From Bacteroidaceae bacterium (GTDB lineage: Bacteria; Bacteroidota; Bacteroidia; Bacteroidales; Bacteroidaceae): a DNA stretch of 63,036 nucleotides. Shown here one piece after another: positions 11,308-28,944 of this stretch. The position numbers were made by a program, and so were the translations under genes. Location: positions 1-63,036 of the forward strand of contig JAFXZY010000038.1 in NCBI GenBank assembly GCA_017541025.1, read 5' to 3'. Every line of letters begins with the position of its first letter. The stretch's first letter is position 1. The notes beneath the pieces are model-generated. The model was not told the DNA's origin, did no database searches, and saw only the letters and a program-made list of their open reading frames with translations.

Positions 11308-12783
11308 ATGAAACCAATTATTAAGTTCTCCCCCTTTGGGGGAGTTAGAGAGGGGCTACTCTTTTTAGCCCTTTTGATAGGCGCGCCAATGTCTACTTTC
11401 AGCGCCAATTATTACGAGGCTCCAGAAAAAGCCAAGAAGCAGGAAGTGGCTGTACAGTCAACCATCAAGGACCTGCGTCCTGCTCCCGAGAAGCGTCTCT
11501 TCCGCAGCGAGGCTGTTGAGAAGCAGATTCTCGACCTCAAATCGAAGCTTACAGCCATCGACCCCAAACTCTACTGGATGTTTGTAAACTGCTTCCCCAA
11601 CACTTTGGACACAACCGTTTGGTACAGCAAGGAGAGCGGCGACGATGACACCTTCGTAATTACCGGTGACATCGAAGCCATGTGGCTGCGCGACAGTGCT
11701 GCACAGGTATGGCCCTATCTGCGTTATGTAAATCAGGACGAGCCGCTGCGTCACCTCATTCGTGGCGTTATCCGTCGTCAGTTGGCCTGCATCCTCATCG
11801 ACCCATACGCCAATGCCTTCAATATCAAGGCTATAGAAAACGGACATTGGATGTCTGACAATACAAAGATGAAGAAGGAACTGCACGAGCGCAAGTACGA
11901 GATTGACTCGCTCTGCTATCCCTTGCGCCTTGCCTATGCCTACTGGCAGCAGACAGGCGACACCAGTATCTTCGACGAGAAGTGGCTACAGGCCATCCGC
12001 GAGATTCTGCACGTCTTCCAGGACCAGCAGAACTGGAACGGTCCCATCACCAACTATCGTTTCACCCGCAAGACTGAGGCTTTGCACGATACACGCTCCA
12101 ACAGAGGCTACGGTCATCCCGGTAAACCTTGCGGACTGATTGCCAGTGCCTTCCGTCCCTCTGACGACAGTACCATCTTCCCCTATCTGGTTCCCAGCAA
12201 CTTCTTTGCCGTAAGTGTATTGCGCAAGGCTGCTATCATCCTGAACGATGTGAATAAGGAATACGGACTGGCAAGCGACTGCCGCCGTATGGCAACTCAG
12301 GTGGAAGAGGCTCTGGAGAAATACGCTGTTGTGGAGCATCCCAAGTATGGCAAGATTTATGCCTTCGAGGTTGACGGCTATGGTTCTGCTCTTCTGATGG
12401 ACGACTCCAATGCGCCCAGCCTGCTCTGCTTGCCTTATCTGACCGATGTATCAATCGACGACCCCATCTACCAGAATACCCGTAAGTTTGTCTGGAGTGA
12501 GGACAATCCTTACTTCTTCAAGGGTAAGGCCGGTGAAGGTATCGGCGGTCCTCACTGCGGTCTGAACAAGCCTTGGCCTATGAGTCTGGTCATGAAAGCC
12601 TTCACTACCAACGACCGCGCCGAGAAGGAATGGTGCGTTCAGCAGATTCTGAAGACCGACGGCGACACAGGTTTCATGCATGAGTCTTTCAACAAGGACG
12701 ATGCCAAGGACTTCACCCGTTCTTGGTTCGCATGGGCCAACACGCTGTTTGGCGAACTTATTGTTGATATGTACGCTCAGTAA
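11308..12783 (+). CDS. GH125 exo-alpha-1,6-mannosidase, exported
   Basis: 491 residues. The family hallmarks are clear: E-A-M-W-L-R-D-S-A-A-Q-V-W-P-Y, Y-E-I-D-S-L-C-Y-P-L-R-L-A-Y, and the late H-E-S-F-N region. GH125 enzymes are metal-independent inverting exo-alpha-1,6-mannosidases, a natural partner of GH92 in removing the branches and core of high-mannose glycans. The start at 11308 follows a purine-rich leader. The signal peptide is unusual: its second to fourth turns (F-S-P-F-G-G-V-R-E-G-L) are encoded by a GC-rich palindromic repeat, so the leader was remodelled by insertion. The stop overlaps the next gene (TAATG). Confidence 0.92.
   Translation: MKPIIKFSPFGGVREGLLFLALLIGAPMSTFSANYYEAPEKAKKQEVAVQSTIKDLRPAPEKRLFRSEAVEKQILDLKSKLTAIDPKLYWMFVNCFPNTLDTTVWYSKESGDDDTFVITGDIEAMWLRDSAAQVWPYLRYVNQDEPLRHLIRGVIRRQLACILIDPYANAFNIKAIENGHWMSDNTKMKKELHERKYEIDSLCYPLRLAYAYWQQTGDTSIFDEKWLQAIREILHVFQDQQNWNGPITNYRFTRKTEALHDTRSNRGYGHPGKPCGLIASAFRPSDDSTIFPYLVPSNFFAVSVLRKAAIILNDVNKEYGLASDCRRMATQVEEALEKYAVVEHPKYGKIYAFEVDGYGSALLMDDSNAPSLLCLPYLTDVSIDDPIYQNTRKFVWSEDNPYFFKGKAGEGIGGPHCGLNKPWPMSLVMKAFTTNDRAEKEWCVQQILKTDGDTGFMHESFNKDDAKDFTRSWFAWANTLFGELIVDMYAQ
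11325..11357 (+). repeat. GC-rich palindromic element inside the GH125 signal peptide
   Basis: CTCCCCCTTTGGGGGAG followed by TTAGAGAGGGGCT. It is read in frame as S-P-F-G-G-V-R-E-G-L. Nearly the same unit occurs in the non-coding gap at 22198-22230. Confidence 0.75.
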
Positions 12784-15305
12784 TGATATTTATGAGAAAT
12801 CAGAAACATACCTTTTGGGGAGCCTTATCATTAGGGCTCCTCATGGTTTTTACGGTAGGGTGCAACAATCAGTCGGAACAGCAGGTGCAGGAGGCTATGG
12901 ACTTTCTGTATGCCAGTATGCCGTTGCCAGATAGCGTTGATTATCCCCGTGAATTCTGGGAGGCAAACGTCAGGGCCACTTTAAAGGCCCGTCAGGAGAT
13001 GCCTTGGGGCGAGAAGGTTCCCGAGCGCGAGTGGAAGCATTTTGTACTCCCCCTGCGTGTCAATAACGAGAATCTGGACTCTGCCCGAATCGTTCTCTAC
13101 GAAACCCTGAAGAACCGTGTAAAGGACAAGAACATGTACGATGCCGTTCTGGAGGTCAACCATTGGTGTCACGAATTTGTCACATACGCTCCCTCCGACG
13201 GCCGTACAAAATCTCCCCTTGTTACCATGCGTTCCGCTACGGGTCGTTGCGGCGAGGAAAGCACGTTTACCGTTGCGGCGCTTCGTGCAGTCGGCATTCC
13301 TGCCCGTCAGGTCTATACCCCACGCTGGGCGCATACCGATGACAACCACGCTTGGGTAGAGGCTTGGGTAAACGGGCGCTGGTACTTCATGGGAGCCTGT
13401 GAACCGCTTCCCGTACTGAATATGGGTTGGTTCAACGAGCCCGCTTCCCGAGGAATGCTGATGCACACCAAGGTCTTTGGCAATTACGACGGCCCAGAGG
13501 AAGTAGTAAGCCGTAACAATTGCTACACCGAGATTAACGTCACCAGCAACTATGCCGACACAGATACCGTCAACGTTAAGGTGGTTGATGCACAAGGTGC
13601 TCCGCTACAGGATGCAAAGGTCGATTTCCGCTTGTATAACTATGCCGAGTTCTATACGCTGGTTTCCAAGCAGTCTGATGCCGATGGCCAGACTTGGTTG
13701 GGATGCGGCAAGGGTGACCTTGTGATATGGGCAAGCAAAGACGGAATGTTCGGTTTCGAGAAAGCCAGTGTTGGGCAGCAGGATACAGTAACCGTGGTGG
13801 TGGATAAGGACGATAGTTTTACGGGATCGTTCGACCTCGACCTCGTTCCGCCTCCTTCCAAAGAATACATACCCGACCTCTCTGAGAGCCAGATACGGAC
13901 AAACAAGCAACGTCTGCAGCGGGAAGACAGCCTGCGAAATGCTTATATGGAACAGACTTTCAGCAAAGAGGAAGACCTGAAGGAGGCCCGTCAGAACTGG
14001 CAGATAATAAAGGAATTCCAGTCTCACCATCTCGGCAAGGAAGTTATCGCCACCTTACGGAAAAAAGACCTTTGCGATGTTTCCCTTGAGGTGCTGACCG
14101 ATGCGGCCGATAACACGCCAGAATCCAACTCTCCCCTTTGGAAGCAGTATGTGCTGGCACCGCGTATCAGCAACGAGATGCTTACTCCTTACCGCAAAGT
14201 GCTGAGTCCCGTCTTTAAGGGTATGGAAGCTGCAGCAATTGCCCAATGGGTGACAGACAGCATCAGCATAGACAATACACGTAATCCACAGAACCTCTGC
14301 ATGAGTCCCGAGGGTGTTTACCGCCATCGTACAACAGATGCCCACAGCCGCGATATCTTCTTTGTGGCTGCCTGCCGTAGTGCCGGTGTACCAGCCCGTA
14401 TCGATGAGGTGACAGGTAAGGTGCAGATTGTGGCCTCACCCCAGCCCTCTCCCGTGGGAGAGGGAGAGCCAGAAGTCAAGGGGCAAGAGGATTGGGTGGA
14501 TGTCACCTTTGGTCAGGCCGTTCAGGAAACAGCGCCTCAGGGAACACTCAGCCTTGCCTATTCCGATTTTTCCATCAAGGAGAATCCTTCTTATTATTCG
14601 CAATTCAGTCTTTCAAGACTGCAAAACGGAACCCTCTCCTTGCAGGAGTTCCCTGAGGAAGCTACCTGGAAAGATACTTTCGCCAATGGTGTACAGATGG
14701 ATGCCGGACAGTATCTGTTGGTTTCAGGTACCCGTATGGCCGACGGTAGCGTACTGGCACATCTGGAGTTCTTTGGTCTGAAGGCTAATACAGCACAGAA
14801 GCAAGTTCTCAAATTGCGCGACAATGCCGACGAATTGCGTGTGATAGGCAACTTCAACTGTGAAAACTATTTTACCAACTACAAGGGCATACACAAGACC
14901 TTGTTGGAGAGTACGGGCAGAGGTTATTATGTGGTAGCGCTGATTCGCGACAATCACGAGCCCAGCACACATATTCTGCATGAATGCGAGGATGCCAATA
15001 TCTACCTCTCTCAGTGGCCGCACCTCTTTGTCATGCTGTTCCCCACACAGGAAGAGTTCCAGTCGTTCCGCTCACATCGCAAGGATTTCGACGAGTTACC
15101 AGACAACTTCATTTTCGGTGTTGCCGATCCAGAGACCATCGAGGCCATGCACATTCAGGAACTCACACACGGCAGTCAGGAGTTGCCTATCCTCATGATG
15201 GCCGACACCTTCAACCGCGTGGTTTGGTTCCAGCAGGGGTATACTATAGGAATTGCAGATCAGATTATGAGTGTCATCCGACAGCTGACAATACATGAGA
15301 AATAG
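12783..15305 (+). CDS. Transglutaminase-like lipoprotein with a degenerate second domain
   Basis: 840 residues. The lipoprotein signal ends V-G-C (Cys27). The first transglutaminase-like domain has Cys156 in G-R-C-G-E-E-S and His189 in D-N-H-A-W-V-E, as in cysteine-protease-like transglutaminase folds. A carboxypeptidase-like beta sandwich follows (A-Q-G-A-P-L-Q-D-A-K-V-D-F). From about residue 420 the layout repeats (L-A-P-R-I-S-N-E-M-L, A-A-C-R-S-A-G-V-P-A-R), but the Cys motif is A-H-S-R-D-I and the His motif is missing, where a palindromic repeat encodes S-P-Q-P-S-P-V-G-E-G-E. It is co-translated with GH125 (TAATG; an alternative ATG lies at 12792). A role in processing glycoprotein peptide is inferred. 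It overlaps cutC tail to tail by 32 bases. Confidence 0.85.
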   Translation: MIFMRNQKHTFWGALSLGLLMVFTVGCNNQSEQQVQEAMDFLYASMPLPDSVDYPREFWEANVRATLKARQEMPWGEKVPEREWKHFVLPLRVNNENLDSARIVLYETLKNRVKDKNMYDAVLEVNHWCHEFVTYAPSDGRTKSPLVTMRSATGRCGEESTFTVAALRAVGIPARQVYTPRWAHTDDNHAWVEAWVNGRWYFMGACEPLPVLNMGWFNEPASRGMLMHTKVFGNYDGPEEVVSRNNCYTEINVTSNYADTDTVNVKVVDAQGAPLQDAKVDFRLYNYAEFYTLVSKQSDADGQTWLGCGKGDLVIWASKDGMFGFEKASVGQQDTVTVVVDKDDSFTGSFDLDLVPPPSKEYIPDLSESQIRTNKQRLQREDSLRNAYMEQTFSKEEDLKEARQNWQIIKEFQSHHLGKEVIATLRKKDLCDVSLEVLTDAADNTPESNSPLWKQYVLAPRISNEMLTPYRKVLSPVFKGMEAAAIAQWVTDSISIDNTRNPQNLCMSPEGVYRHRTTDAHSRDIFFVAACRSAGVPARIDEVTGKVQIVASPQPSPVGEGEPEVKGQEDWVDVTFGQAVQETAPQGTLSLAYSDFSIKENPSYYSQFSLSRLQNGTLSLQEFPEEATWKDTFANGVQMDAGQYLLVSGTRMADGSVLAHLEFFGLKANTAQKQVLKLRDNADELRVIGNFNCENYFTNYKGIHKTLLESTGRGYYVVALIRDNHEPSTHILHECEDANIYLSQWPHLFVMLFPTQEEFQSFRSHRKDFDELPDNFIFGVADPETIEAMHIQELTHGSQELPILMMADTFNRVVWFQQGYTIGIADQIMSVIRQLTIHEK
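14433..14470 (+). repeat. GC-rich palindromic element inside the transglutaminase gene
   Basis: CCTCACCCCAGCCCTCTCCC followed by GTGGGAGAGGGAGAGCC; stem CCCTCTCCC/GGGAGAGGG. It is read in frame as part of an 11-residue Pro/Gly/Glu insertion at about residue 550. Confidence 0.75.
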
Positions 15306-15987
15306 TCTCGTGCACCATTACGGCATCGGTATGACCGTTCTTTCTAAGGGAGCCATGGATTTCTGTGGCTCCCGTTTCTTTTATGATACGGGCAGCATTC
15401 TGGGGTGTCACACCTGCTCCTGGCATAATGCGGAAGTCGCTTCCCCTAACGCCACAACCTTCCCGTGGTTCGAAGGTTTTGGCCTCAGCCACCAGTTCTC
15501 TCAGCAAACCGATTCCTTCTTCGGCCTTGGGAGCTAAGCCACTGGTTAGCAGACGGTCGCAACCCAGGGAATAGATTTCCAGCAACGATTCCTTAGGATT
15601 CCTGCACACATCAAAGGCACGATGGAATGTAATGTGCATCCTGTCGCCTGCCGCTTCTACCATACGGTGACAAGCCTGCAAGTCTATGTCGCCATTGGGT
15701 GTTAGCGCACCTATCACCACACCTTGGGCACCCAACCTACGGGCCACCTGTATGTCGTAAATCATACAGTCCACCTCATCCTCGGAATACACAAAGTTGC
15801 CGCCACGGGGTCGGATAAGCACATGCGTGGTAATGCCGCTGTTCACAGCCAACTCTATCATGCCGGCCGATGGGGTAAGACCGTCCACATCAAGCGCCTG
15901 ACACAACTCCACCCTATGCGCACCACCAGCTATTGCAGCACGCAGACTGGGCAGGTCGGCACAACAAACTTCTAACTTAAATTCCAT
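15274..15987 (-). CDS. cutC: CutC family protein
   Basis: 237 residues starting M-E-F-K-L-E-V-C-C-A-D, a TIM barrel of the CutC family (G-A-H-R-V-E-L-C, L-T-P-S-A-G, H-V-L-I-R-P-R-G-G-N-F-V-Y, H-I-T-F-H-R-A-F-D, G-A-G-V-T-P-Q-N-A). CutC was linked to copper tolerance, but its biochemical role is unsettled. Start 15987 is preferred over 16011: the -7 box TAAATTTG at 16009-16016 excludes the longer form. The gene ends inside the 3' end of the convergent transglutaminase gene. Confidence 0.92.
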   Translation of the reverse strand: MEFKLEVCCADLPSLRAAIAGGAHRVELCQALDVDGLTPSAGMIELAVNSGITTHVLIRPRGGNFVYSEDEVDCMIYDIQVARRLGAQGVVIGALTPNGDIDLQACHRMVEAAGDRMHITFHRAFDVCRNPKESLLEIYSLGCDRLLTSGLAPKAEEGIGLLRELVAEAKTFEPREGCGVRGSDFRIMPGAGVTPQNAARIIKETGATEIHGSLRKNGHTDAVMVHETISHVLSAVG

Positions 15988-16008
15988 GCTTTTTTTCTTT
16001 TTAGACTG

Positions 16009-16054
16009 CAAATTTATCCCTTATTCTTCATTCTTCATTTTTTTTGTAATTTTG
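16009..16054. promoter_or_regulatory. Divergent -7 boxes for cutC (-) and queA (+)
   Basis: TAAATTTG on the minus strand at 16009-16016 and TAATTTTG on the plus strand at 16047-16054. A short 7-nt array (TTCTTCA units) lies between them. Confidence 0.55.
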
Positions 16055-16070
16055 CACAAAATTTCAAGAA

Positions 16071-17348
16071 ATGGATACTAAAGAGATACAGATAAAGGAT
16101 TACAACTATCCACTGCCCGATGAGCGGATAGCCAAATTTCCCCTTCCTGAACGCGACAGCAGCAAGTTGCTGGTGTACAAGAGCGGAGAAGTAACGGACG
16201 ACGTTTTCCGCTCCTTGCCCAACTATCTGCCGCAGGGTGCCCTTATGGTTTTTAATAATACCAAGGTGATTCGTGCCCGCCTTCACTTCCGCAAGAACAC
16301 AGCACTCCCCCAAAGGGGGAGCGGGGAGGGGGCTTTAATAGAAATCTTCCTTCTCGAACCAGCTTTTCCTATCGAGTATCAGGAGAATTTCATCGCTACC
16401 TCGGAATGTTCCTGGTATTGTCTGGTGGGCAACTCCAAGAAATGGAAAGAAGGCTTGCTCTTTGGCGAATTTCAGATAGGCGGCACATCCTATACTATAT
16501 CTGCCGAGCGTGTGGCTCCTCATGGCACCAGCTTCGAGATTCATTTCCGCTGGGAAGGCAACTTTGCTTTCTCCGAGGTGTTGGAGTCGCTGGGCGAACT
16601 TCCCATCCCACCCTATCTGAACCGTAAGACCGAGGAGAGCGACCTTAGCACCTATCAGACCGTCTATTCCAAAATCAAAGGCTCCGTGGCTGCTCCAACG
16701 GCAGGACTCCATTTCACGGAACGTGTACTGGCCGACCTGGATGCGCACGGTATAGAGCGCGAGGAGTTGACCCTACACGTGGGTGCCGGCACCTTCAAGC
16801 CCGTCAAGAGCGAGGAGATTGGCGACCATGAGATGCATACCGAGCATATTGCCGTCCGCCTGCAAACCATCGAGAAGCTGATTCAGCACAAGGGAAAGGC
16901 CATTGCCGTAGGAACGACTAGCGTCCGCACGCTGGAGAGTCTGTATTATATGGGTATTATCGCCCGACAGTTAATGGACGAAGGAAAAGATACCGGTGAC
17001 GGTGAAGAATTACACGTCCATCAGTGGATGCCCTATGAGGGAATTCAAGATTCAAGATTCAAAATTCAAAATTCAATCACTTCGAACGAGGCGTTAACTT
17101 CACTTCAGGCTTACATGCAGAAACACCACCTCGATGTCTTGCATAGCAGTACGCAGATAATCATTGCTCCAGGTTATCAGTTCCACATCGTGCAGATGAT
17201 GGTAACCAACTTCCACCAGCCGCAGAGTACTTTACTCCTTTTGGTAAGCGCCTTTGTGCATGGCGACTGGCGCAAGATTTACGATTACGCTTTAGCTAAC
17301 CAGTTCCGTTTCCTTAGTTACGGCGACAGTTCACTTCTTATCCCATGA
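16071..17348 (+). CDS. queA: S-adenosylmethionine:tRNA ribosyltransferase-isomerase
   Basis: Builds epoxyqueuosine at the tRNA wobble position by transferring the ribosyl part of SAM to preQ1. Family motifs are intact: V-F-N-N-T-K-V-I-R-A-R-L near the start, A-A-P-T-A-G-L-H-F, L-H-V-G-A-G-T-F-K-P-V, V-G-T-T-S-V-R-T-L-E-S, Y-Q-F. At 425 residues it is about 70 longer than the E. coli enzyme. Two additions come from repeats: A-L-P-Q-R-G-S-G-E-G-A at 16303-16333, in the loop after R-A-R-L-H-F-R-K-N-T, and a 7-nt array at 17041-17080 reading I-Q-D-S-R-F-K-I-Q-N-S. Both fall between conserved blocks, so activity may be kept. It overlaps the nudix gene by ATGA. Confidence 0.93.
   Translation: MDTKEIQIKDYNYPLPDERIAKFPLPERDSSKLLVYKSGEVTDDVFRSLPNYLPQGALMVFNNTKVIRARLHFRKNTALPQRGSGEGALIEIFLLEPAFPIEYQENFIATSECSWYCLVGNSKKWKEGLLFGEFQIGGTSYTISAERVAPHGTSFEIHFRWEGNFAFSEVLESLGELPIPPYLNRKTEESDLSTYQTVYSKIKGSVAAPTAGLHFTERVLADLDAHGIEREELTLHVGAGTFKPVKSEEIGDHEMHTEHIAVRLQTIEKLIQHKGKAIAVGTTSVRTLESLYYMGIIARQLMDEGKDTGDGEELHVHQWMPYEGIQDSRFKIQNSITSNEALTSLQAYMQKHHLDVLHSSTQIIIAPGYQFHIVQMMVTNFHQPQSTLLLLVSAFVHGDWRKIYDYALANQFRFLSYGDSSLLIP
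16303..16333 (+). repeat. 31-bp GC-rich palindromic unit inside queA
   Basis: CACTCCCCCAAAGGGGGAG followed by CGGGGAGGGGGC. It is base-for-base identical to the unit at 26233-26263 and to the reverse complement of 26172-26202. It encodes A-L-P-Q-R-G-S-G-E-G-A. Confidence 0.85.
17041..17080 (+). repeat. 7-nt array inside queA
   Basis: Five units of ATTCAAG/ATTCAAA read in frame in the C-terminal half of queA. Confidence 0.65.
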
Positions 17349-17863
17349 TAGCAGAAGGAAAAGATAACAGTCAGGAGTTGTTTCCCGTTGTGGATGAAGA
17401 AGGCAACATCCTTTCAGCAGCCACTCGTGGCGAATGTCATAGCGGCAGCATGTTGTTACACCCCGTTGTGCATCTTCATATTTTTAATTCCGAAGGTGAG
17501 TTGTACCTTCAGAAGCGTCCTGCATGGAAAGATATTCAGCCCGACAAGTGGGACACAGCCGTTGGCGGACACGTGGATTTGGGCGAGAATATTCAGGAAG
17601 CACTCCATCGTGAGGTTCAGGAGGAATTGGGCATTACCGATTACCAGCCGCAAGCCCTACCCCACTACGTTTTTCAGTCCGACCGCGAGCGGGAGCTGGT
17701 CTTTCCTTTCCGCACCATTTATGATGGAAATATAACGCCCAGTAAAGAGACAGATGGTGGTCGCTTCTGGTCTATCCCAGAGATAGAAGCCTCAATAGGC
17801 AAAGGCATCTTCACTCCCAACTTCGAGAGCGAATACCAAAGAGTAATAAAAAGTGAAGAATGA
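17345..17863 (+). CDS. Nudix hydrolase (YfcD / isopentenyl-diphosphate-isomerase-like)
   Basis: 172 residues with a perfect Nudix box: G, H-V-D-L-G, E, N-I-Q-E-A-L-H, R-E-V-Q-E-E-L-G-I. The flanks (D-E-E-G-N, L-Y-L-Q-K-R-P-A-W-K-D-I-Q-P-D-K-W-D-T-A-V-G-G-H) match the YfcD/IDI-like group, which hydrolyses nucleoside-diphosphate-linked compounds of unknown identity. The ATG lies in the queA stop (ATGA), so the two are probably translated together. The last codons and the stop (K-S-E-E-stop) are supplied by a 7-nt array at 17849-17892. Confidence 0.9.
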   Translation: MIAEGKDNSQELFPVVDEEGNILSAATRGECHSGSMLLHPVVHLHIFNSEGELYLQKRPAWKDIQPDKWDTAVGGHVDLGENIQEALHREVQEELGITDYQPQALPHYVFQSDRERELVFPFRTIYDGNITPSKETDGGRFWSIPEIEASIGKGIFTPNFESEYQRVIKSEE

Positions 17864-18068
17864 AGAATGAAGAGTGAAGAATGAAGAGTGAAAGTTACAG
17901 TTCCCGTCGATTTTGTCGACGGGAACTATAACATAATAAACCGTAAACCGTAAATAGTAAACGGTAAACCATAAACCGTAAACTCTAAACTCTAAACTGA
18001 AAAACCTCTTGAACGGTTAGCGTTAACGTTATCGTTATTAATTGTCAATTATCAATTGTCAATTCAAT
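17849..18068. repeat. Three consecutive 7-nt arrays with a 12-bp hairpin, between nudix and xth
   Basis: 17849-17892 has TGAAGAA/TGAAGAG units, 17935-18000 has AACCGTA/AACTCTA units, and 18018-18068 has GTTAACG- and ATTGTCA-type units. A perfect 12-bp stem with a 5-nt loop lies at 17899-17927 (AGTTCCCGTCGA / TCGACGGGAACT). It has no U-tract, so terminator function is uncertain. Both flanking genes end within the arrays. Confidence 0.7.
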
Positions 18069-18800
18069 AGGACAGTGGTCTGACCCTAAGATTCCCGTGT
18101 AAATCTTAGCATCGGTAACCTTGGGGAAGAGGCGGTTGCTGACCAGCCAATAATCAATGCGCCACCCCGTGTTCTTGGCACGGGCCTGGAAGCGATAGCT
18201 CCACCACGAATACACATCCTTCACATCAGGGTTCAGCGTGCGCCACGTATCGGTAAAGCCAGCAGCAAGCAGTTGTGTAAACTTCTCGCGCTCCTCATCC
18301 GTAAAGCCGGCATTCATGTGATTGGTCTTGGGATTCTTCAGATCTATCTCCTGATGTGCCACATTCATATCTCCACATACAATGACGGGCTTTTTGGCAT
18401 CCAAAGAGAGCAGATAGGCACGGAAATCATCTTCCCATTTCATACGATAGTCAAGTCGTTTCAGGCCGTCCTGACTATTGGGCGTATAGACGCAAACCAG
18501 GTAGAAATCCTGCATCTCTAACGTTATCACGCGCCCTTCCTGGTCGTGCTCCCCGATGCCAATGCCATAGGTTACTCTTATGGGTTGATGCTTAGTAAAA
18601 ACGGCTGTGCCGGAATAGCCTTTCTTCTCGGCATAGTTCCAGTATGACTGATACCCGGGAAACTGAAGATCCAATTGCCCCTCCTGCATCTTCGTCTCCT
18701 GCAGACAGAAGAAGTCGGCATCCAACTCCTCAAACACTTCCTTAAAGTTCTTTCCCACTACGGCTCTCAGACCGTTCACATTCCAACTAATAAATTTCAT
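18045..18800 (-). CDS. xth: Exodeoxyribonuclease III (AP endonuclease)
   Basis: 251 residues of the EEP nuclease fold: W-N-V-N-G-L-R-A at the N-terminus, L-Q-E-T-K with the metal-binding Glu, Y-T-P-N-S-Q, G-D-M-N-V-A-H, and the C-terminal G-S-D-H-C-P-I. It repairs abasic sites and removes blocked 3' ends. It has its own promoter (-7 TATTTTTG at 18814-18821), divergent from the next gene. The last four codons and the TGA fall in a 7-nt array (ATTGACA/ATTGATA). Confidence 0.94.
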   Translation of the reverse strand: MKFISWNVNGLRAVVGKNFKEVFEELDADFFCLQETKMQEGQLDLQFPGYQSYWNYAEKKGYSGTAVFTKHQPIRVTYGIGIGEHDQEGRVITLEMQDFYLVCVYTPNSQDGLKRLDYRMKWEDDFRAYLLSLDAKKPVIVCGDMNVAHQEIDLKNPKTNHMNAGFTDEEREKFTQLLAAGFTDTWRTLNPDVKDVYSWWSYRFQARAKNTGWRIDYWLVSNRLFPKVTDAKIYTGILGSDHCPIELTIDN

Positions 18801-18813
18801 ACTCTTTTTTTTG

Positions 18814-18851: not shown

Positions 18852-18883
18852 CCCCAAAATAATTCAAATCAATCCATAAAAAA

Positions 18884-21400: not shown

Positions 21401-21405
21401 AAAGT

Positions 21406-22080
21406 CTAAAGCTCTGTCTGTTCCACCACTTGACCGTCAAAGAGGTTGATGATGCGGTCGGCATAGCTGGCATTGTGCTGCGAGTGGGTGACCATGACGA
21501 TGGTTGTGCCCTTCTCGTGGAGCTGAAGCAGAAGGTCCATCACCTCCTTGCTGTTTTTGGAATCCAGATTGCCCGTCGGCTCATCGGCCAGGATAATCTT
21601 GGGATTGGAAACTACGGCCCGTGCCACAGCCACACGCTGCTGCTGACCGCCTGAGAGCTGGCAGGGAAAATGCCTGCGGCGGTGCGACATAGCCATGCGG
21701 TCCAGCATCTCCGCAACCCGCTTCTTGCGCTCCTTGGCAGGAACGCCCATATAGAGCAGCGGAAGTTCGACGTTCTCATAGACATCGAGGTCGTCGATGA
21801 GGTTAAAGCTCTGGAACACAAAGCCGATGGTACCTCGGCGGATGTTCGTCCGTTCGCGCTCCGGCAGCTGGCTCACATCCTTGCCGTTCAGCATGTAGGT
21901 TCCCTCGGTAGGTGTGTCCAGCAATCCCATTATATTTAATAAGGTAGTCTTGCCGCAACCCGACGGGCCCATGATGGCAACAAATTCGCCTTCTTTTACT
22001 TCCAGGCTCACTTCGCGCAAAGCCCAGGTGTCAATCTCTTCCGTACGGAATACTTTTTTGATGTTTGATAATGTAATCAT
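21406..22080 (-). CDS. ABC transporter ATPase, MacB/LolD type
   Basis: 224 residues starting M-I-T-L-S-N-I (the earlier ATG at 22095 adds only V-N-I-S). Walker A G-P-S-G-C-G-K-T-T, Q-loop F-V-F-Q-S-F-N-L-I, signature L-S-G-G-Q-Q-Q-R, Walker B I-I-L-A-D-E-P-T-G-N-L-D, H-loop V-T-H-S. The subgroup energises FtsX/MacB-like permeases that drive lipoproteins, peptides or macrolides outward by mechanotransmission. It lies downstream of its permease, separated by 154 bp of repeats. Confidence 0.9.
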   Translation of the reverse strand: MITLSNIKKVFRTEEIDTWALREVSLEVKEGEFVAIMGPSGCGKTTLLNIMGLLDTPTEGTYMLNGKDVSQLPERERTNIRRGTIGFVFQSFNLIDDLDVYENVELPLLYMGVPAKERKKRVAEMLDRMAMSHRRRHFPCQLSGGQQQRVAVARAVVSNPKIILADEPTGNLDSKNSKEVMDLLLQLHEKGTTIVMVTHSQHNASYADRIINLFDGQVVEQTEL

Positions 22081-22084
22081 AGAT

Positions 22085-22197
22085 ATATTTACCATTTAAT
22101 CATTTACCATTTACCATTTGATAGTTTACCATTTAATCATTTACCATTTACCATTTGATAGTTTACCATTTAATCATTTACCATTTACCATTTAATA
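22085..22197. repeat. Longest 7-nt array (TTACCAT/TTAATCA/TTGATAG)
   Basis: About 110 bp of degenerate heptamers between the permease and ATPase genes, containing larger near-duplicates of about 50 bp. Confidence 0.7.
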
Positions 22198-22230
22198 GTT
22201 CTCCCCCTAGAGGGGGAGTTAGAGAGGGTC
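22198..22230 (+). repeat. GC-rich palindromic element after the ABC permease
   Basis: CTCCCCCTAGAGGGGGAG followed by TTAGAGAGGGTC. It nearly matches the copy in the GH125 signal peptide. It abuts the permease stop. Confidence 0.7.
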
Positions 22231-22234
22231 TTTT

Positions 22235-24694
22235 TTACTCCTTCTTAATTATTTTTGCCGGATCTAATTTCGACACTCTGTATATCTTGTACCCTACGGT
22301 CAGCAGGGTAACGAGGGCTATGAAAAGAATGCTAAATAGGCTGGGAATAAGCAACTCCATCGTGTTCTCGAAGTTGATGTATTGCTTTTCGAACATCGCG
22401 AATTCGAGACCGAGACAGAAGGGCAGCAAGATGATACTGCTGACAACAAGCCACCAAATGTATGGACTGCCGAAAAGCCACATAATCTGCCCCACGCTGG
22501 CACCATGTGCCTTACGGATGGCAACCTCCTTCTGCCGGCCCCGTGTGTCCAAGGAGACAGAGGAGTAGAGCGTCAGCACCATACAAAGCAGAGCAACAAT
22601 CATCATTACATTTGAGATGTGTCCCATCATTCCTCCCATACGAGATTCCTTGTAGCAAACCTCATACAGATTCTCTATAGGTGCTTTTGCCAACGTGAAC
22701 TGGCCTTCCTTCTGATAGAGGTTCGTCAGTTCCTTTACTGCAGCTTTGTACTGATTGGGTCTTGCCATAAAGATAATGCTGTGCTTGAGCGTCATGTATT
22801 CTCCCTGACTATACTCTAAGCCTATGCCAGCACGATGCGATAATGATTCCTTATTCGAGAAGTAGGATGTATCGCACACATAAACATATCTTGGAGTATC
22901 GTCGTATTGGGTGAAGGAAGCAAGCTTTCTGCCATCCACAAACCCCACACGTTCTGCCTGTTTACCTTTTTCTATATTATGGTAAACGGGAGCCCCTTGC
23001 TGCTTCACGCCAAACTTCTTTCTGAGTTCTGCTGCGCGTTCCTTTGGGGCATAGACGGGAATGGTACCTACGGTCCAGAATTCTAAATCTGTGGCAGTGG
23101 GACTAACTTTAATATCCAACATCCCAAACAGGCGGTCGTCTGTCAGTAACACCTGATACACGCAGATAGGGTTCCCATCTCTATCCTTTCCCCTTTCCCT
23201 TTCATATACTGGAACAGAGGGTTCTTTACCGTCTGTCAGCACTTCTTGGAGGAATCCTGCAGCCGTATGGGCACTTTCGCTCACATATTGTAACTGTGGT
23301 ATGCTGTCCAGGAAAGCAGGTTTCCATTCATTATAGTCTGTTATGATGCCATTCTGGATCTTTTCTGCGTTGAGACGGTAATCGGGGTCATAAGTCTCAG
23401 TAAAATACATTCCTGCAAATATGATGAAGAATAAAAACTGGCAGATGACCATCTGCGAAACGATGAGCAGGCCTCGACCACAAGTGGACGTCTTATGGCT
23501 CTTACCCACCACCTGACTCAGCGGTTTGGTTATCACGCTACGTACAGAAAGGGCAGCTATGACAACTGTAACCAAAAAGACAGCCAGACAGAGCCATAAC
23601 TCGGTGGTATAAGTCTGTGGCATATTAAAGGAGTAGGGTCTGTCGAATGCCATTTCTAAGACGGGAATGGCATACTCTGCCAACAGCGCTGTCAGACCCA
23701 GCGTGAGCAGCGTGACAAAGAAGAAGACAATAGCCACTTCCCACATCATCAGGCCGAAAAGCTGTTCCCGATGTGCTCCCATACATTGGCGCAGCCCCAT
23801 CTCACGCTGACGCAGACGGAATAGCTGAATCTGCGTTTTCAGGAAGCCAAACAAACCTATTAGCAATATGCTGCTGCAAAGAATGAATGTAAAAATAACC
23901 AATAATCTTGTCTGTCGAGATGCGTACCCATCCGCTAAAACTTTTATGTTGTATTCCGGCAACGTTTTTTGCAGATCCTTTTTCAAGTCGTCAGCCGTTT
24001 TTCCTTTAGCAAGGATGAGATTAAAACTGCTTAGCATATGGGTTTCGCAAAAATCATCGCCCTTAAATTCTTGCAGGAAAGGGGTGGCAACCAGCATCAG
24101 ATAGTCCTCTGTGAGCATCCAGTCGCCAGTATCCACTACATCTTTAATGACATTGTTAGTGACATATCTTCCGACAAAAAATCCATTGCTCACAGTAAAC
24201 CCAATGGGATTCACGTCCTTGCCGAAGGTGCGCTCCAACATGCCTTTAGTCATAATGATGTCTCCAGGTTTCAGTACAGGGATGGGCTTGCCTGTAATGG
24301 CAGACCTCAGACCCAGGTAGTTGAGATGTTCTGGACATATCAATTTTCCATTGATTTTTACGAGATGCTTTATACCCTCACGATCTGTTAATTTGCCATC
24401 AAACTTAAATTTGCCTTCGTTGATGTCTATAAAATCAATGCTGGACAAATGGCTGTCGCCAATACGCTTCATGTCTGAAATAGAAAGGAAGGCTATACTG
24501 TCGTTTTTCGTATTGAATATTACTTCCACACGACGAGGGTCGGCTCCATACCTCCTTTGAGATTCCATCTTTCGCTGTGTATAAATAAAGGCGGTGCTAA
24601 AGAACACCATTCCCACTGCCAGGCAGAGCACCGCTATGATGTTCTGCACCTTGTACTTCATGAGATTGCGCCATGCAATCCGGATGTTGTGCAT
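22235..24694 (-). CDS. ABC transporter permease, FtsX/MacB family, two-domain
   Basis: 819 residues starting M-H-N-I-R-I-A-W-R-N. The layout is TM1 at about 22-42, a long periplasmic domain, three TMs at about 270-400, then a second TM/periplasmic/three-TM half ending Y-R-V-S-K-L-D-P-A-K-I-I-K. This is the duplicated MacB_PCD-FtsX architecture of Bacteroidota exporters. The start is 24694 because the extension to 24745 (N-Y-K-L-R-I-M-N-Y-E-L-K) is translated 7-nt array and overlaps the -7 box TACCTTTG at 24743-24750. It is paired with the ATPase and divergent from the two-component system, which probably controls it. Confidence 0.9.
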   Translation of the reverse strand: MHNIRIAWRNLMKYKVQNIIAVLCLAVGMVFFSTAFIYTQRKMESQRRYGADPRRVEVIFNTKNDSIAFLSISDMKRIGDSHLSSIDFIDINEGKFKFDGKLTDREGIKHLVKINGKLICPEHLNYLGLRSAITGKPIPVLKPGDIIMTKGMLERTFGKDVNPIGFTVSNGFFVGRYVTNNVIKDVVDTGDWMLTEDYLMLVATPFLQEFKGDDFCETHMLSSFNLILAKGKTADDLKKDLQKTLPEYNIKVLADGYASRQTRLLVIFTFILCSSILLIGLFGFLKTQIQLFRLRQREMGLRQCMGAHREQLFGLMMWEVAIVFFFVTLLTLGLTALLAEYAIPVLEMAFDRPYSFNMPQTYTTELWLCLAVFLVTVVIAALSVRSVITKPLSQVVGKSHKTSTCGRGLLIVSQMVICQFLFFIIFAGMYFTETYDPDYRLNAEKIQNGIITDYNEWKPAFLDSIPQLQYVSESAHTAAGFLQEVLTDGKEPSVPVYERERGKDRDGNPICVYQVLLTDDRLFGMLDIKVSPTATDLEFWTVGTIPVYAPKERAAELRKKFGVKQQGAPVYHNIEKGKQAERVGFVDGRKLASFTQYDDTPRYVYVCDTSYFSNKESLSHRAGIGLEYSQGEYMTLKHSIIFMARPNQYKAAVKELTNLYQKEGQFTLAKAPIENLYEVCYKESRMGGMMGHISNVMMIVALLCMVLTLYSSVSLDTRGRQKEVAIRKAHGASVGQIMWLFGSPYIWWLVVSSIILLPFCLGLEFAMFEKQYINFENTMELLIPSLFSILFIALVTLLTVGYKIYRVSKLDPAKIIKKE

Positions 24695-24698
24695 TTTT

Positions 24699-24795
24699 AA
24701 TTCATAATTCATAATTCGTAATTTATAATTGGTTTTCTGCTGCAAAGGTAAGGCAATTCATAGTTCATAGTTTATAGTTTATAGTTCATAGTTGC
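24699..24795. repeat. 7-nt arrays in the permease leader, with -7 box
   Basis: TTCATAA-type units at 24699-24733 (5' leader) and TTCATAG/TTTATAG units at 24757-24795. The minus-strand -7 box TACCTTTG lies at 24743-24750 between them. Confidence 0.65.
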
Positions 24796-24799
24796 CGTT

Positions 24800-24839
24800 T
24801 GTCCAAACATTAGACACACTTGTGTCCAATTCTTTGACA
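24800..24839. promoter_or_regulatory. Two TGTC-N9-GACA palindromes between permease and response regulator
   Basis: TGTC (24800-24803)...GACA (24813-24816) and TGTC (24823-24826)...GACA (24836-24839), centres 23 bp apart, in the divergent gap. They are inferred binding sites for the adjacent Fis-type response regulator. Confidence 0.6.
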
Positions 24840-24909
24840 CTTCCGGGTAAATACACGCAAAAGCGGTAGCAAATTCTTCATTCTTCACTCTTCATTCTTC
24901 ATTTCTTTG

Positions 24910-24917
24910 TATCTTTG
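24910..24917 (+). promoter_or_regulatory. -7 box TATCTTTG for the two-component operon
   Basis: TAnnTTTG consensus about 49 bases before the GTG start. 7-nt arrays flank it (24872-24903 and 24928-24960). Confidence 0.55.
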
Positions 24918-24965
24918 CACTCAAATAAATGGTAAATAGGTAAATGATTAAATGGTAAATGTAAG

Positions 24966-25535
24966 GTGAAATACGGAACGATACTTGTCATAGACGACAA
25001 TGCTGCCATCCTCACAGCTGTGAAGATTTGCCTGACTGGTGTGTTTGAACGCGTAGTTACCCTGACCTCCCCCGATAAGGCCCTTGTAACCATCGCTCAG
25101 GAGAATCCTGCTGCCATCCTGCTGGATATGAACTTCAGCCTGGGCGTGAACTCAGGCCAGGAGGGTATGATGTGGCTCTCCGCCATCCATCGCAAGTATC
25201 CGGATATTCCCATCGTTCTCATCACAGCCTACGCCGATGTTAAATTAGCGGTACGAGCGTTAAAGAATGGCGCTGCCGACTTTGTAACCAAGCCGTGGGA
25301 CAACGACGAGCTGATCCGCGTGCTGAAAGATGCCATCGACAAGGCAGGCGAGGTTATACCCTTAGACCAGTTGGAAACGGAACATGTGCGCAAGGTGCTG
25401 AACAAGTGCGATGGCAACATGAAAAAGGCTGCAGACCTCTTGGGCATCAGCAGGCAGACATTATATAATAAGGTAAAAGCCTCACCCCTGACCCCTCTCC
25501 GGGGAGAGGGGAAACTTAGGGGAGAGGGGGAATAA
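24966..25535 (+). CDS. Response regulator: receiver fused directly to Fis-type helix-turn-helix
   Basis: 189 residues. Receiver with acidic pair D10-D11, phosphoacceptor D54, T-A-Y switch at about 88, and K109. Residues about 136-171 are an NtrC-type Fis HTH (V-L-N-K-C-D-G-N-M-K-K-A-A-D-L-L-G-I-S-R-Q-T-L-Y-N-K). The AAA+ ATPase of NtrC is absent, so sigma-54 activation is not expected; the layout is that of RegA/ActR-like regulators. The initiator is GTG at 24966: the ATG at 24952 meets a stop after five codons. The tail S-P-L-T-P-L-R-G-E-G-K-L-R-G-E-G-E is encoded by a palindromic repeat. The kinase follows after 6 bases. Confidence 0.88.
   Translation: MKYGTILVIDDNAAILTAVKICLTGVFERVVTLTSPDKALVTIAQENPAAILLDMNFSLGVNSGQEGMMWLSAIHRKYPDIPIVLITAYADVKLAVRALKNGAADFVTKPWDNDELIRVLKDAIDKAGEVIPLDQLETEHVRKVLNKCDGNMKKAADLLGISRQTLYNKVKASPLTPLRGEGKLRGEGE
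25480..25530 (+). repeat. GC-rich palindromic element forming the response-regulator tail
   Basis: CCTCACCCCTGACCCCTCTCC, then GGGGAGAGGGG and a second GGGGAGAGGGGG. It is read in frame up to the TAA at 25533-25535. Confidence 0.75.
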
Positions 25536-25541
25536 CTGACT

Positions 25542-26471
25542 ATGATACCCATTATCATTATAACAGTCGTTTTGGCCGGCGTTGCGCTGATTTTGTTCTA
25601 TTGGTATCGCCATCAATGCCTGCTTCGCGAGCGGGCGCAGATTATGCGCGATGCCATCAGACACAGGGATTTCTCGTTCCGACTACCTACACGGGGGCTG
25701 TTCTTCGGCGAAAAAGCTCTGCAGGAAGCACTCAACGACATGGGGCAAGAGATACAGAAACTGGTAGCGCATAGTGAAGTAGAATCGTGGCAGAAACTGA
25801 CACGAGTGCTGACGCACGAAATTATGAACGCCACCGCTCCTATTCAGAGTATCAGTCAGGCATACCTGAAGCGCTCTGACATCAAGGACTCTCCTTACAA
25901 AGAAGGCATACGTGCCATTAACGATACCAGCGCGGGATTAGCTGCCTTTGTGGAGAGCTATCGCAAACTCACACAGTTGCAGGAACCTGTGATAGCTGAT
26001 GTAAATATGTTATCGTTCTGCAAACAGATAGCTACGCTTTACCCCCAACTACAATGGAACATTGACATTCCCGCCGATTTTGTCCTGCAGGCCGACGAAA
26101 ACCTTCTGCGCCAGGTTTTCATCAACCTGACAAAGAATGCCATAGAAGCTGAGGCCAAAGCAATCAGCCTTGCCCCCTCCCCGCTCCCCCTTTGGGGGAG
26201 TGCTTTGAAGCGGCGAGGCAATGGGATTGCGACACTCCCCCAAAGGGGGAGCGGGGAGGGGGCCGGGCTTCTCTTCTCCAACGACGGACATGTTATCCCC
26301 CTTGATGTGGCACAGGAGATATTCATCCCCTTCTTTACCACCAAGCAGACGGGGACAGGCATCGGTCTGTCCCTCTCCCGCCAGATTCTGATGAAGCAAG
26401 GCATGAATCTCAGCCTCGCCGAGTCTCCCCTGCGAGGCTATAACGTCACCTTTGTTATTGAGTGTAAATGA
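25542..26471 (+). CDS. Membrane sensor histidine kinase with repeat insertion in its ATPase domain
   Basis: 309 residues. TM segment about 3-22, no large sensor domain. H-box with His92 (L-T-H-E-I-M-N-A-T-A-P-I), N-box L-T-K-N-A-I-E-A near 200, F-box F-F-T-T-K, G2 box G-T-G-I-G-L-S. Residues about 211-241 come from two palindromic repeats in inverted orientation, placed between the N-box helix and the segment S-N-D-G that stands where the usual D-x-G-x-G (G1) box is expected. Here G1 is F-S-N-D-G-H-V-I, an atypical form already common in this kinase group or altered by the insertion. The cognate regulator is upstream. Confidence 0.86.
   Translation: MIPIIIITVVLAGVALILFYWYRHQCLLRERAQIMRDAIRHRDFSFRLPTRGLFFGEKALQEALNDMGQEIQKLVAHSEVESWQKLTRVLTHEIMNATAPIQSISQAYLKRSDIKDSPYKEGIRAINDTSAGLAAFVESYRKLTQLQEPVIADVNMLSFCKQIATLYPQLQWNIDIPADFVLQADENLLRQVFINLTKNAIEAEAKAISLAPSPLPLWGSALKRRGNGIATLPQRGSGEGAGLLFSNDGHVIPLDVAQEIFIPFFTTKQTGTGIGLSLSRQILMKQGMNLSLAESPLRGYNVTFVIECK
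26172..26263. repeat. Inverted pair of identical 31-bp GC-rich palindromes inside the kinase gene
   Basis: 26172-26202 is the exact reverse complement of 26233-26263, separated by 30 bp. Each unit is itself palindromic (CTCCCCCAAAGGGGGAG core). Both are read in frame (P-S-P-L-P-L-W-G-S-A-L and L-P-Q-R-G-S-G-E-G-A). Confidence 0.88.
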
Positions 26472-26541
26472 TTTCTAATGTCTGCTAAGTAGTCATTTTT
26501 TCTTTATACTTCAGCAAGACAAGCGTCCACTTTTTTATGTT

Positions 26542-27383
26542 CTAACGGCTTTTCTGGAGATAAAAAACTTCAACTTGTTTTGAGTCTGAGTCATCTTCAT
26601 TCCCCAAAACAATCTCTATCTTATTACCGCTGGAATTAATGGTGGCACAATATTTTCTTTGGACCTTCTTTTTTTCTTATATCCTCCTGATATTGTTTGA
26701 GCCTCTCCTTAATTTCCTTGATGTATTCCTCAACCTCCTTCTCCTTACCAAACTTTGCCTTGACATGACTTTGGTCAACATCAATTTCCGGGGCACCATT
26801 CATATTCATACACAATGTATCTCCACGCAATTCCCATGTGCCGGTGAAATGATAAGTGAGATCCAGGCGACCCACGAACATTTGATAAGAAAAATGGTCT
26901 ATGTAGGTTTGCTTATACGTATGGTCTTCCAAAAACTCGTAGCAGGTGTATGTTGACTCTGTATTATGCATAATCCATTTACCCATAAGCTCACTCTCCT
27001 TTACATTTCGTCCCGTACGTTCGCAATTCTCTACATATTCCTCCAATTCCTCATCTGTAATACCAATGGTGAATTTGCAAAGGTCGCTGTAGCTTTGGAT
27101 TGACTCTGCCATCTCTTCGAACGTATCTTGCCATTTCTATTCCATTCTTCTCCTCCTTACCAAATTCTTTTAGGAGTTCTACGGTGTTATCCATATCATG
27201 AATAACCATCATGGCTGTCTGTCAGCCAAGAGCCTTCTTCTCTCTCAGGTCGATGTAGTGTGCCGTTCCAAAGGTCAGGACAATGGATAGTGTAGCTCCA
27301 ATAAAAGTCATAAACAACTACTTCATCATAGAATTCCTGACGAAGTGCTGGTACATTTTGGGCATTCTGATTTTTACGTTCAT
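26542..27383 (-). pseudogene. Decayed gene for a membrane-anchored hypothetical protein
   Basis: Joining frames gives one protein. It starts M-N-V-K-I-R at 27383; a TAG is codon 22 (27318-27320); a TM segment follows (F-M-T-F-I-G-A-T-L-S-I-V-L-T-F-G); a TGA is codon 54 (27222-27224) inside A-L-G-stop-Q-T-A-M-M-V-I-H-D; then there is an extra base in an AAA run (27134-27136). Removing that base yields G-I-E-W-Q-D-T-F-E-E-M-A-E-S, which enters the intact stretch 26636-27112. An extra A in an A7 run (26669-26675) moves the end from I-L-C-H-H-stop to a good tail (V-E-V-F-Y-L-Q-K-S-R) stopping at 26542. The middle holds a lipocalin-like segment (G-K-W-I-M-H, F-T-G-T-W-E-L). Homopolymer errors could explain the shifts but not the two stops. 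Confidence 0.75.
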
Positions 27384-27430
27384 TGTTCCTGTTGTGTTAA
27401 GTATTTTAAAAGTGCAATTTAGTGAGCGGG

Positions 27431-27466
27431 AAAAAAGCCCCTACGCTGCAAAACGTGGGGGCTTGG
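27431..27466 (-). terminator. Intrinsic terminator of asnS
   Basis: On the minus strand AAGCCCCCACG, loop, CGTAGGGGCTT, then a T6 tract (27431-27436), about 10 bases after the asnS stop. Confidence 0.85.
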
Positions 27467-27474
27467 ATTAGCTA

Positions 27475-28944
27475 TTAAAATTCTGCGTTCTTGGGAGTAC
27501 GTGGGAAGGGGATGACATCGCGGATGTTCTGCATACCGGTTACGAAGAGTATCAGACGTTCGAAACCGAGGCCAAAGCCTGCATGGGGGCAGCTTCCGTA
27601 CTTGCGGGTATCGAGATACCACCACAAGTGGGTCATATCCATCTTACGACGCTCTATCTCGGCCATCAGCTTATCATAGCTTGCCTCACGGACAGAACCG
27701 CCTATAATCTCGCCAATAGAGGGGAAAAGCACATCGGTGCCCTGCATAGTAGGACCAGGTGCTACGCAACCTTTGTAACCTACAGATCCGCCTTCAGGCG
27801 TTGCTGGGTTCTGCTTCATATAGAATGACTTGATAGCTGTGGGATAGTCGGTCATGATGACGGGCTTCTTAAAGTGTTCCTCTACCAGGTAGCGCTCGTG
27901 CTCAGATGCTAAGTCGTCGCCCCAGTTGCAGGGGAACTCAAACTTCTTGCCGTTCTTGATGGCTTCCTGCAGGATGTTGATACCCTCGGTGTAGGGCAGA
28001 CGAACAAAGTTGTCTTTCAGTACACCCTCGAGACGAGGAATCAAATCCTGATTTGGGGTAATGAACTTATTGTTGTTGATAAATTCCAGGTCATCCTTGC
28101 ACTTCTCTAATGCCCAGCGCACGCAGTATTTGATGAAGTCTTCTTCCAAGTCCATCAACTCTTCCTGATCAAGAAAAGCAACCTCAGGCTCTATCATCCA
28201 GAACTCTGCCAAATGGCGTGGAGTATTGCTGTTTTCGGCACGGAAGGTGGGACCGAAGGTGTAAATGGCACCCAGGGCTGTAGCACCTAACTCGCCTTCC
28301 AACTGACCGCTTACGGTAAGAGAGGTCTGTTCGCCAAAGAAATCATCGTCGTAGATAATCTTTCCCTGCTCGTCCTTCTTCAGGTCGTAAAGGTTCTTGG
28401 TGGTTACCTGGAACATATTTCCGGCACCCTCGCAGTCGGAAGCTGTGATAAGGGGCGTGTGGAAATAGAAGTATCCGTGCTCATGGAAATAAGTATGGAT
28501 GGCCATTGCCATATTGTGGCGGATACGCAGGATGGCACCAAAGAGGTTGGTGCGGGGGCGCAGATGGGCCACGGTGCGAAGATATTCCATAGAAGCACCT
28601 TTCTTCTGCAGAGGATAGGTGTTATCGCAATCGCCAAAAATCTCTATGGCTGTTGCCTGGATTTCGCTGGCCTGACCGGCTGCGGGGCTTTCAACCAACT
28701 TGCCTTCGACACTGATGCAGGCGCCTGTGGTGATACGCTTTATGGTCTCCTCGGCAAAGTTGGCCTCTTCGCCTACAATCTGTACGCTTTTGACGGTGCT
28801 ACCATCGTTCAGGGCAATAAAGAAAATACCCTTGGAACCACGTTTTGAGCGCACCCAACCTTTAACGCAAATGGAAGCCCCCTCCTCGCTCCCCCCTTGG
28901 GGAAGTGCCATGTTGAGGACATCTAAAACTTTTGTTCGTTTCAT
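27475..28944 (-). CDS. asnS: Asparaginyl-tRNA synthetase
   Basis: 489 residues. OB-fold anticodon domain ([12 protein letters not shown]) then a class II core: [12 protein letters not shown] motif 1/2 region, [21 protein letters not shown], motif 3 G-F-G-L-G-F-E-R-L. The family is usually near 466 residues. Between the start [12 protein letters not shown] and the OB fold sits [11 protein letters not shown], encoded by a diverged GC-rich palindrome (28877-28908). It has its own terminator; the 5' side faces repeats. Confidence 0.95.
28877..28908 (-). repeat. GC-rich palindromic element inside asnS
   Basis: Minus-strand GCACTTCCCCAAGGGGGGAG followed by CGAGGAGGGGGC, a diverged copy of the 31-bp unit. 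It is read in the same frame as in queA ([11 protein letters not shown]). Confidence 0.8.

Follow-up and report, generated by a model that had tools for sequence, protein, structure and literature searches.

How did short GC-rich palindromes come to lie, in frame, inside several unrelated protein-coding genes of one bacterial contig, and what kind of element are they? The question is raised by a stretch of 63,036 nucleotides (contig C63 of a Bacteroidaceae bacterium, GenBank JAFXZY010000038.1; hereafter the window), for which a sequence-only reading had described in-frame palindromic repeats in at least six genes, likened them to Rickettsia palindromic elements (RPEs), and suggested a transposase as their mover. 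The host genome (3.28 Mb, 95 contigs, 83.85% complete) is a draft, and the closest relatives of its AsnRS come from Prevotella-like Bacteroidales, many of them of rumen origin. Analyses of this genome and its relatives suggest that the palindromes are probably mobile elements resembling repetitive extragenic palindromic (REP) elements and their hairpin-forming inverted doublets (REPINs).

Two palindrome families in the host genome

Where a single 31-bp unit had been described, we found two related GC-rich palindrome families in the window, namely family A (seven window copies; consensus A1, CACTCCCCCAAAGGGGGAG-nn-GGAGGGGGC) and family B (two window copies; consensus A2, GCCTCACCCC-nn-ACCCCTCTCC...GGAGAGGGG). 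Their units are 32-36 bp long, palindromic and present in high copy number, as in REPs in the broad sense. A search of the 3.28-Mb genome for the exact core of family A (CTCCCCCNNNGGGGGAG) gave 40 occurrences, against none for the reversed control. This excludes a chance origin of the family A copies, so that the unit does not merely occur at chance frequency genome-wide. Covariance model searches of the same genome at E ≤0.01 detected at least 114 copies of family A (model R1) and 89 rows for family B (model R2), the latter representing at least about 88 copies with one pair overlapping. As only 150 first-look candidates were scored for each family, out of 1,271 for A and 1,499 for B, these copy numbers are lower bounds and are skewed toward good copies. 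The family A model also matches 17 of 22 genomes of the same genus (1 to 107 copies each, again lower bounds, with 150 candidates scored per genome) and one of four genomes of the same order.

In-frame copies in protein-coding genes

The reading frame is open through all seven in-gene copies reported for the window, and that observation is real and understated. Genome-wide, 81 of the 114 family A copies lie entirely inside an open reading frame (ORF) of at least 100 aa. ORFs of at least 150 aa contain 74 copies, so the family is not mainly extragenic as REPs would be; 40 of these copies are interior (in 36 ORFs), 21 are on the start side (no more than 25 codons from the ORF start) and 13 on the end side (no more than 18 codons from the ORF end). 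The start-side copies are the least certain because the true start may be downstream, and they may partly be extragenic. Since in-gene copies were found by their open frames, frame-keeping is also partly built into the in-gene count.

For 25 copies in 24 genes, both flanks are backed by Pfam domains or orthologues; these copies were assigned by reading Pfam tables and alignments, with matches below the cut-off or not passing as single stretches at C89:6523 (kelch), C78:29980 (HisKA) and one flank of C70:3920. These genes encode MutS2, a PKD/laminin protein, RsmF, QueA, CarA-CarB, a kelch protein, a GlcNAc 2-epimerase, an ArsP permease, the window kinase (two copies), Mfd, two MFS transporters, AsnRS, Pol IV, an S9 peptidase, TopA, a second kinase, GltB, an FAD protein, CysN, an inositol phosphatase, RelA/SpoT, PyrG and a carboxylesterase.

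Comparison with orthologues distinguishes occupied from empty sites. The AsnRS insert, with a net gain of six residues, is absent in all 24 aligned relatives (24 of 80 relative loci); the GlcNAc 2-epimerase carries a clean 36-nt insertion (+12 residues) relative to 5/5 relatives; and the inserts of Mfd (+13 residues) and CysN are absent in 6/6 and 5/5 relatives, respectively. QueA has a short loop without palindrome in four of six genus relatives and other palindromes at that loop in the remaining two, and its insert sits in an alignment gap relative to PDB chains 1yy3 and 1vky. Thus, it is not the case that all orthologues contain the same residues, although a few inserts are common to the host and one or two sister species. 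In-gene palindromes add roughly 6-30 residues to host proteins. Because the net gains differ between genes, no fixed in-frame unit is seen, and frame-keeping looks like a filter.

The inserts are probably placed in surface loops, judging from the alignments. Searches with 110-residue pieces found no second gene copy of AsnRS, PyrG, TopA, QueA or GltB in the assembly, and the palindrome-decorated proteins are therefore probably functional; for RelA/SpoT, the assembly contains a paralogue of 50% identity.

The same placement was examined in two sister genomes, G005 and G015, using the 20 best-scoring copies listed for each, which are not a random sample. Copies were interior to ORFs of at least 150 aa in 16/20 (G005) and 10/20 (G015) cases. 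Among the 20 of 29 ORFs found there that were scanned with Pfam, we read the copy as lying inside a domain in nine, between two domains in four, and without such support in seven; the in-domain hosts include two class I tRNA synthetases, a MetH activation domain and threonine synthase.

Inverted doublets, frames and insertion ends

Family A copies that lie close together mostly form inverted pairs. Of 21 neighboring pairs no more than 250 bp apart, 18 are in (-,+) order (p 9e-9 against an expectation of 1/4), and 16 of these 18 have gaps of 14-73 bp, giving doublets of 79-137 bp. The other 80 of the 114 copies lie outside close (-,+) doublets, and doublet members score higher than they do (median 43.0 vs 35.3 bits, p 0.049). 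Such doublets can fold into one hairpin, as in REPINs; folding was computed for one of them, that of the window kinase, which as single-stranded DNA reaches -51.2 kcal/mol vs -24.2 +/- 2.8 for shuffled sequences (z -9.7).

The 40 interior copies use all six frames (6, 14 and 5 copies in gene orientation and 3, 7 and 5 reversed), and five of six are used among the 25 supported copies. In the 38 copies above 44 bits, stops are present in 0, 0, 4, 1, 4 and 0 copies across the six frames.

Flanking repeats of at least 4 bp were found at 1/12 doublets (shifted controls 0-2) and 8/54 singles (controls 2-8), and repeats of at least 5 bp at 6/54 singles (controls 0-3). Although a shuffle test had pointed to a target-site duplication, a trait of MITEs (12/51, where 500 shuffles averaged 4.6 and reached 12 at most), this signal was mostly removed by the local control, and no duplication stands out around doublets or singles against local shifted controls.

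A probable mobile element tolerated in coding sequence

We consider it likely that the palindromes are REP/REPIN-like non-autonomous mobile elements that have spread through the genomes of the genus, with coding insertions surviving where the frame is kept in a tolerant place. This explanation builds on what is observed, namely how widely the copies have spread, their arrangement as doublets, their in-frame placement and the presence or absence of the insert among orthologues. A single unit consists of a GC-rich hairpin with an unpaired G- or C-rich arm, and some units are inverted doublets folding to one long hairpin. Insertions into genes would persist if in frame and in a tolerant loop, linker or terminus, with purifying selection deciding which survive. 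Well-kept units would simply be read as extra residues because they seldom have a stop in any frame, and these residues would really be translated. The elements would have moved as hairpins of single-stranded DNA, with the transposase coming from another source.

Several points weigh against this explanation. Per base, copies are several times rarer in genes than outside them in the host genome (about 0.90 of the window is coding, a rough estimate). Orthologue support is thin for MutS2 (no relative compared), Pol IV (one) and RsmF (one), and the loops of TopA, the inositol phosphatase and the FAD protein differ in length between relatives anyway. Frame use is uneven among the 25 supported copies (p 0.012) and nearly so among the 40 interior ones (chi-square p 0.051), and selection on the encoded peptide is possible because of this unevenness. 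With all 114 copies counted, the rarity of stops no longer holds for every frame (10, 7, 21, 7, 29 and 5 copies). Neither consensus A1 nor A2 has a GTAG or CGTC head; CCTC does occur in both arms on one of the strands, but the A/T first pairs reported in PMC3733652 are missing from the stems. Movement itself is deduced from differences between species. Finally, the Y1 transposase domain (PF01797) had no match in the host genome (83.85% complete), nor any in the sister genomes G005, G012 and G020.

Search for a transposase

The first alternative concerns the mover: a canonical REP-associated tyrosine transposase (RAYT, or TnpA_REP) in the host may move the palindromes, its gene lying in the missing part of the assembly. 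We regard this as a serious possibility, if not the favored one. The doublet form is REPIN-like, and Y1 transposases occur in the genus (6/22 genomes, 4 above the cut-off). In the taxonomic family, PF01797 was detected in 71 of the 201 genomes searched, the host genome included (5 of 12 among the same-genus genomes listed, the host apart and with 110 match-less genomes unlisted). Because the assembly is only 83.85% complete, a missing match is no proof of absence, and it is possible that the mover lies in the missing 16% or belongs to the past.

The RAYT-like mover proposed in the sequence-only reading is, however, not supported by these genomes. The host, G005, G012 and G020 are the only four of 25 genus genomes searched that have at least five exact cores, and PF01797 was found in none of them; conversely, G022 has a RAYT but no family A copy was found there. 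At four of the five strong RAYT loci in the genus (L199, L204, L285 and L286), palindromes of other kinds border the locus on each side, and at the fifth (L200, in G177) no hairpins were found under the same criteria. The family A model gave no match at L285, L286 or L204 and a weak one (15.9 bits) at L199, and the family B model gave none in 23 RAYT loci. Thus, a RAYT gene flanked by the same palindrome, the check that had been proposed, was not found among the five strong loci, none of which has a convincing A or B copy as a flank. Two family A matches at RAYT loci favor a link: one at L200, which scores 24 bits, lies about 1.1 kb away from the RAYT gene and is a lead only, and one of 19.6 bits is at L210 in another genus. 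The Y1 transposases at L199, L204, L285 and L286 have a QKEHH or QVEHH motif like that of TnpA subclass 1.2, which according to PMC6006769 generally lacks typical end structures; the four loci have palindromes on both sides despite this motif.

Loops occupied by different palindromes

Five loops hold different palindromes in different species, at nearly identical codons: those of the kinase, the CarA-CarB linker, GltB, QueA and the transglutaminase-like protein. At the kinase loop, other doublet types are present at L351 (B-type) and L338 (a third type), a single hairpin at L348, and none at L328 and L331. The CarA-CarB linker contains palindromes in the host and at L253, L222 and L230, and none at L252, L254 and L255. 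For the transglutaminase-like protein, the loop is native and free of palindromes at L339, L340 and L342, whereas L344 and L345 have other doublets right after the same GKV motif, within a stretch of the same 81 nt, so that these look like replacements.

A second alternative is that each site has long been occupied by a palindrome whose type changes from species to species through gene conversion by other copies, so that different doublets would not represent independent insertions. The near-identity of codons between species agrees with this, as do the ends of the host kinase doublet (AGCCT and GGCT), which resemble those of the family B-type doublet at L351. However, every such site is empty in some genus relatives, and the loops are permissive, so repeated insertion also explains the pattern. 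The data thus agree with separate insertions as well as with conversion at the site; we consider conversion possible but rather unlikely.

We also asked if the palindrome could have caused the CarA-CarB fusion. This was ruled out because the fusion is found in all six aligned relatives, three of them without a GC-rich linker hairpin. In the host, a single ORF of 979 aa (L165:351-3290, minus strand; L393) combines CarA with the front part of CarB, and contig C66 contains a 1079-aa ORF with an MGS domain that is probably a full CarB. Fused ORFs in sister genomes are 738-1,025 or 1,466-1,523 aa long, some perhaps cut by contig ends.

Translation, ancestry and assembly

A third alternative is that the hairpins are not translated, because ribosomes skip them or because they are cut from the RNA, as with mitochondrial bypass elements. 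In its favor, the hairpins are very stable. Yet frames are open through the in-gene copies, which bypass would not require, although these copies were found by their open frames. Genes split by out-of-gene copies were also looked for: 40 of the 114 copies are outside ORFs of at least 150 aa, 17 of them have flanking same-strand frames, and with 20 frames newly scanned for Pfam in addition to earlier scans, no split gene was found in the 10 of 17 pairs that were testable, where Pfam families of different proteins lie on the two sides (5/20 newly scanned frames had no Pfam match). Skipping or excision thus appears very unlikely.

It is still less probable that the inserts are native ancestral loops, GC-rich by accident. 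Some are common to species (PyrG in the host and G020; GltB in the host and G015; RelA probably in the host, G005 and G020), but identical DNA is found in genes unrelated to one another and in intergenic positions, and it is read in five of six frames among the supported copies and in all six among the interior ones. For AsnRS, GlcNAc 2-epimerase, Mfd and CysN, where the residues are absent in all relatives compared, and for QueA, where they are absent in most, this origin is refuted. CTP synthase (L165:5285-6997, minus strand) has, at residues about 130-150, a seeming second insert, in APLNPSEGRNGFDSPLHLEGSGEA, relative to PDB 9kao. Assembly chimaeras at a 32-bp repeat, conceivable in a 95-contig draft with sister genomes that are also fragmented, are similarly improbable, since the two flanks of each supported copy belong to a single orthologue or a single order of domains and the same in-gene habit is seen in other assemblies.

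Comparison with known systems

GTAG/CGTC REPs (Di Nocera et al. 2013, PMC3733652) are 20-40 bp long with inverted dimers predominating; some lie inside ORFs of known proteins, where dimers or groups code for 20-30 residues, and different REPs occupy about the same recB site in two Xanthomonas species. Most are intergenic, and CCTC is permitted as a CGTC variant. The GTAG families are described from Proteobacteria, Cyanobacteria, Chloroflexi and the PVC group, and CGTC also from Bacteroidetes. The palindromes studied here are alike in size, inverted dimers, residence in ORFs and the occupation of one site by different REPs, but differ in having other heads and in being in ORFs of at least 150 aa in 74/114 cases, whereas GTAG/CGTC REPs are mostly intergenic.

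Location also differs from that of REPINs with RAYTs: in Pseudomonas fluorescens SBW25, only 14 of the 1,067 most abundant 16-mers overlap genes (Bertels and Rainey 2011, PMC3116915), compared with the 74/114 copies in ORFs here. The likeness lies in inverted REP doublets folding into one hairpin, and no RAYT was found here. In TnpA_REP subclass 2.4, REPs are inserted in the tnpA_REP genes themselves (PMC6006769); they are thus also inside coding sequence, that of a transposase gene instead of many unrelated genes.

RPEs, the classic example, with nearly half of the first reported ones in ORFs (PMC10969869), likewise lie in frame in unrelated genes and are read as added peptides. The parallel drawn by the sequence-only reading is apt in this respect, given the in-frame residence in unrelated genes and the inserts missing in orthologues. 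Membership in the RPE families is not indicated: RPEs are about 150 bp long, whereas the present units are about 32 bp (doublets 79-137 bp), have their own consensus (size and consensus being the basis of this judgment) and live in a rumen Bacteroidales host.

In-frame intragenic REPs are therefore already known from the literature. Among the matches listed from open-access PMC text, the search being limited to that text and not extending to subscription journals, none described elements of this kind spread over numerous Prevotella or Bacteroidales genes. To judge from these matches, what seems new is the host lineage, the high in-gene share, the head sequences and the re-use of loops by different families in sister species.

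Individual copies and other repeats in the window

Two of the copies previously placed inside genes are terminal. The family A copy at 11326..11357 (+; 37.3 bits; FSPFGGVREG) is in the GH125 ORF (11260-12783, likely start 11308), as had been stated, but it extends the signal-peptide n-region, with such residues in 0/7 aligned relatives. The family B copy at 25479..25513 (+; 43.6 bits) is likewise within the response regulator ORF (24966-25535) but forms a C-terminal extension: 5/6 relatives stop before the palindrome, and in the sixth (L328) another palindrome starts there and provides the stop.

The remaining in-gene copies comprise a family B copy at 14433..14466 (+; 30.4 bits) in the transglutaminase-like protein (ORF 12783-15305), reading ASPQPSPVGEGE, and family A copies at 16303..16334 (+; 49.1 bits) in queA (ORF 16071-17348), reading ALPQRGSGEGA, and at 28876..28907 (-; 42.3 bits) near the N-terminus of asnS (ORF 27475-28944, minus strand). 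The kinase (ORF 25542-26471) contains an inverted family A doublet within its HATPase_c domain (185-306), the left half at 26171..26202 (-; 46.6 bits) reading APSPLPLWGS and the right half at 26233..26264 (+; 46.7 bits) reading TLPQRGSGEGA.

Outside recognized genes, a family A copy at 22200..22231 (+; 36.5 bits) is probably intergenic, as the 137-aa ORF spanning it (22155-22568) has no Pfam match; directly before it, positions 22072-22211 contain a tandem repeat of ATTTACCATTTAATC-like units with 37-bp spacing. Another at 29070..29101 (+; 41.7 bits) is intergenic and adjoins the stop of ORF 29101-30369 (minus strand); a direct repeat, TTCAAACGCTCCC, flanks it at 29062-29120 and overlaps part of the unit. 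Of the two further intergenic copies proposed earlier, the one at 8491 has no match up to E 1 with either model and the one at 11223 has weak matches only (11243-11277, 13.6 bits, E 0.096; 11237-11251, 7.9 bits, E 0.4), so that both places are degenerate copies at best.

Other repeats were observed as well. Two 60-bp direct repeats (98% identical) lie at 8865-9008, early in ORF 8825-11221, whose true start may be downstream. Short AT-rich repeats (for instance TCAATTC or TGAAGAA units) fill spacers and lie in frame in genes, sometimes beside palindromes (window 17838-17908, 24693-24908 and 28940-29069; L165 ORF 351-3290; L191 ORF 1648-2949; L254); they encode SQLSTLNSQL and IQDSSFMIHDS and may represent a second kind of tolerated coding insert. 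Elsewhere in the genome, three small related ORFs (L130:3889-4314, L131:1931-2326 and L136:100-540, starting like NNNPLNIR...KWQGQ) share one variant of family A, placed at an identical codon in each, with one of the three proteins clearly diverged from the other two despite the common position.

Significance

REPs are defined as extragenic, and here about two dozen recognized proteins of one genome are decorated by REPs, with the same in-gene habit in two sampled sister species. A broader interpretation, which we offer tentatively as one possibility, is that a genus of rumen Bacteroidales has a REPIN-like system residing mainly in coding sequence, in which several competing doublet families repeatedly colonize, replace or convert one another in the same loops without a resident RAYT, and in which mobile DNA may keep supplying core enzymes with new loop residues. 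Comparing orthologous loops that have an insert with those that have none offers a natural experiment on the addition of residues to working enzymes by mobile DNA. The findings also serve as a warning that short GC-rich protein inserts in these bacteria can be mobile DNA and not functional features.

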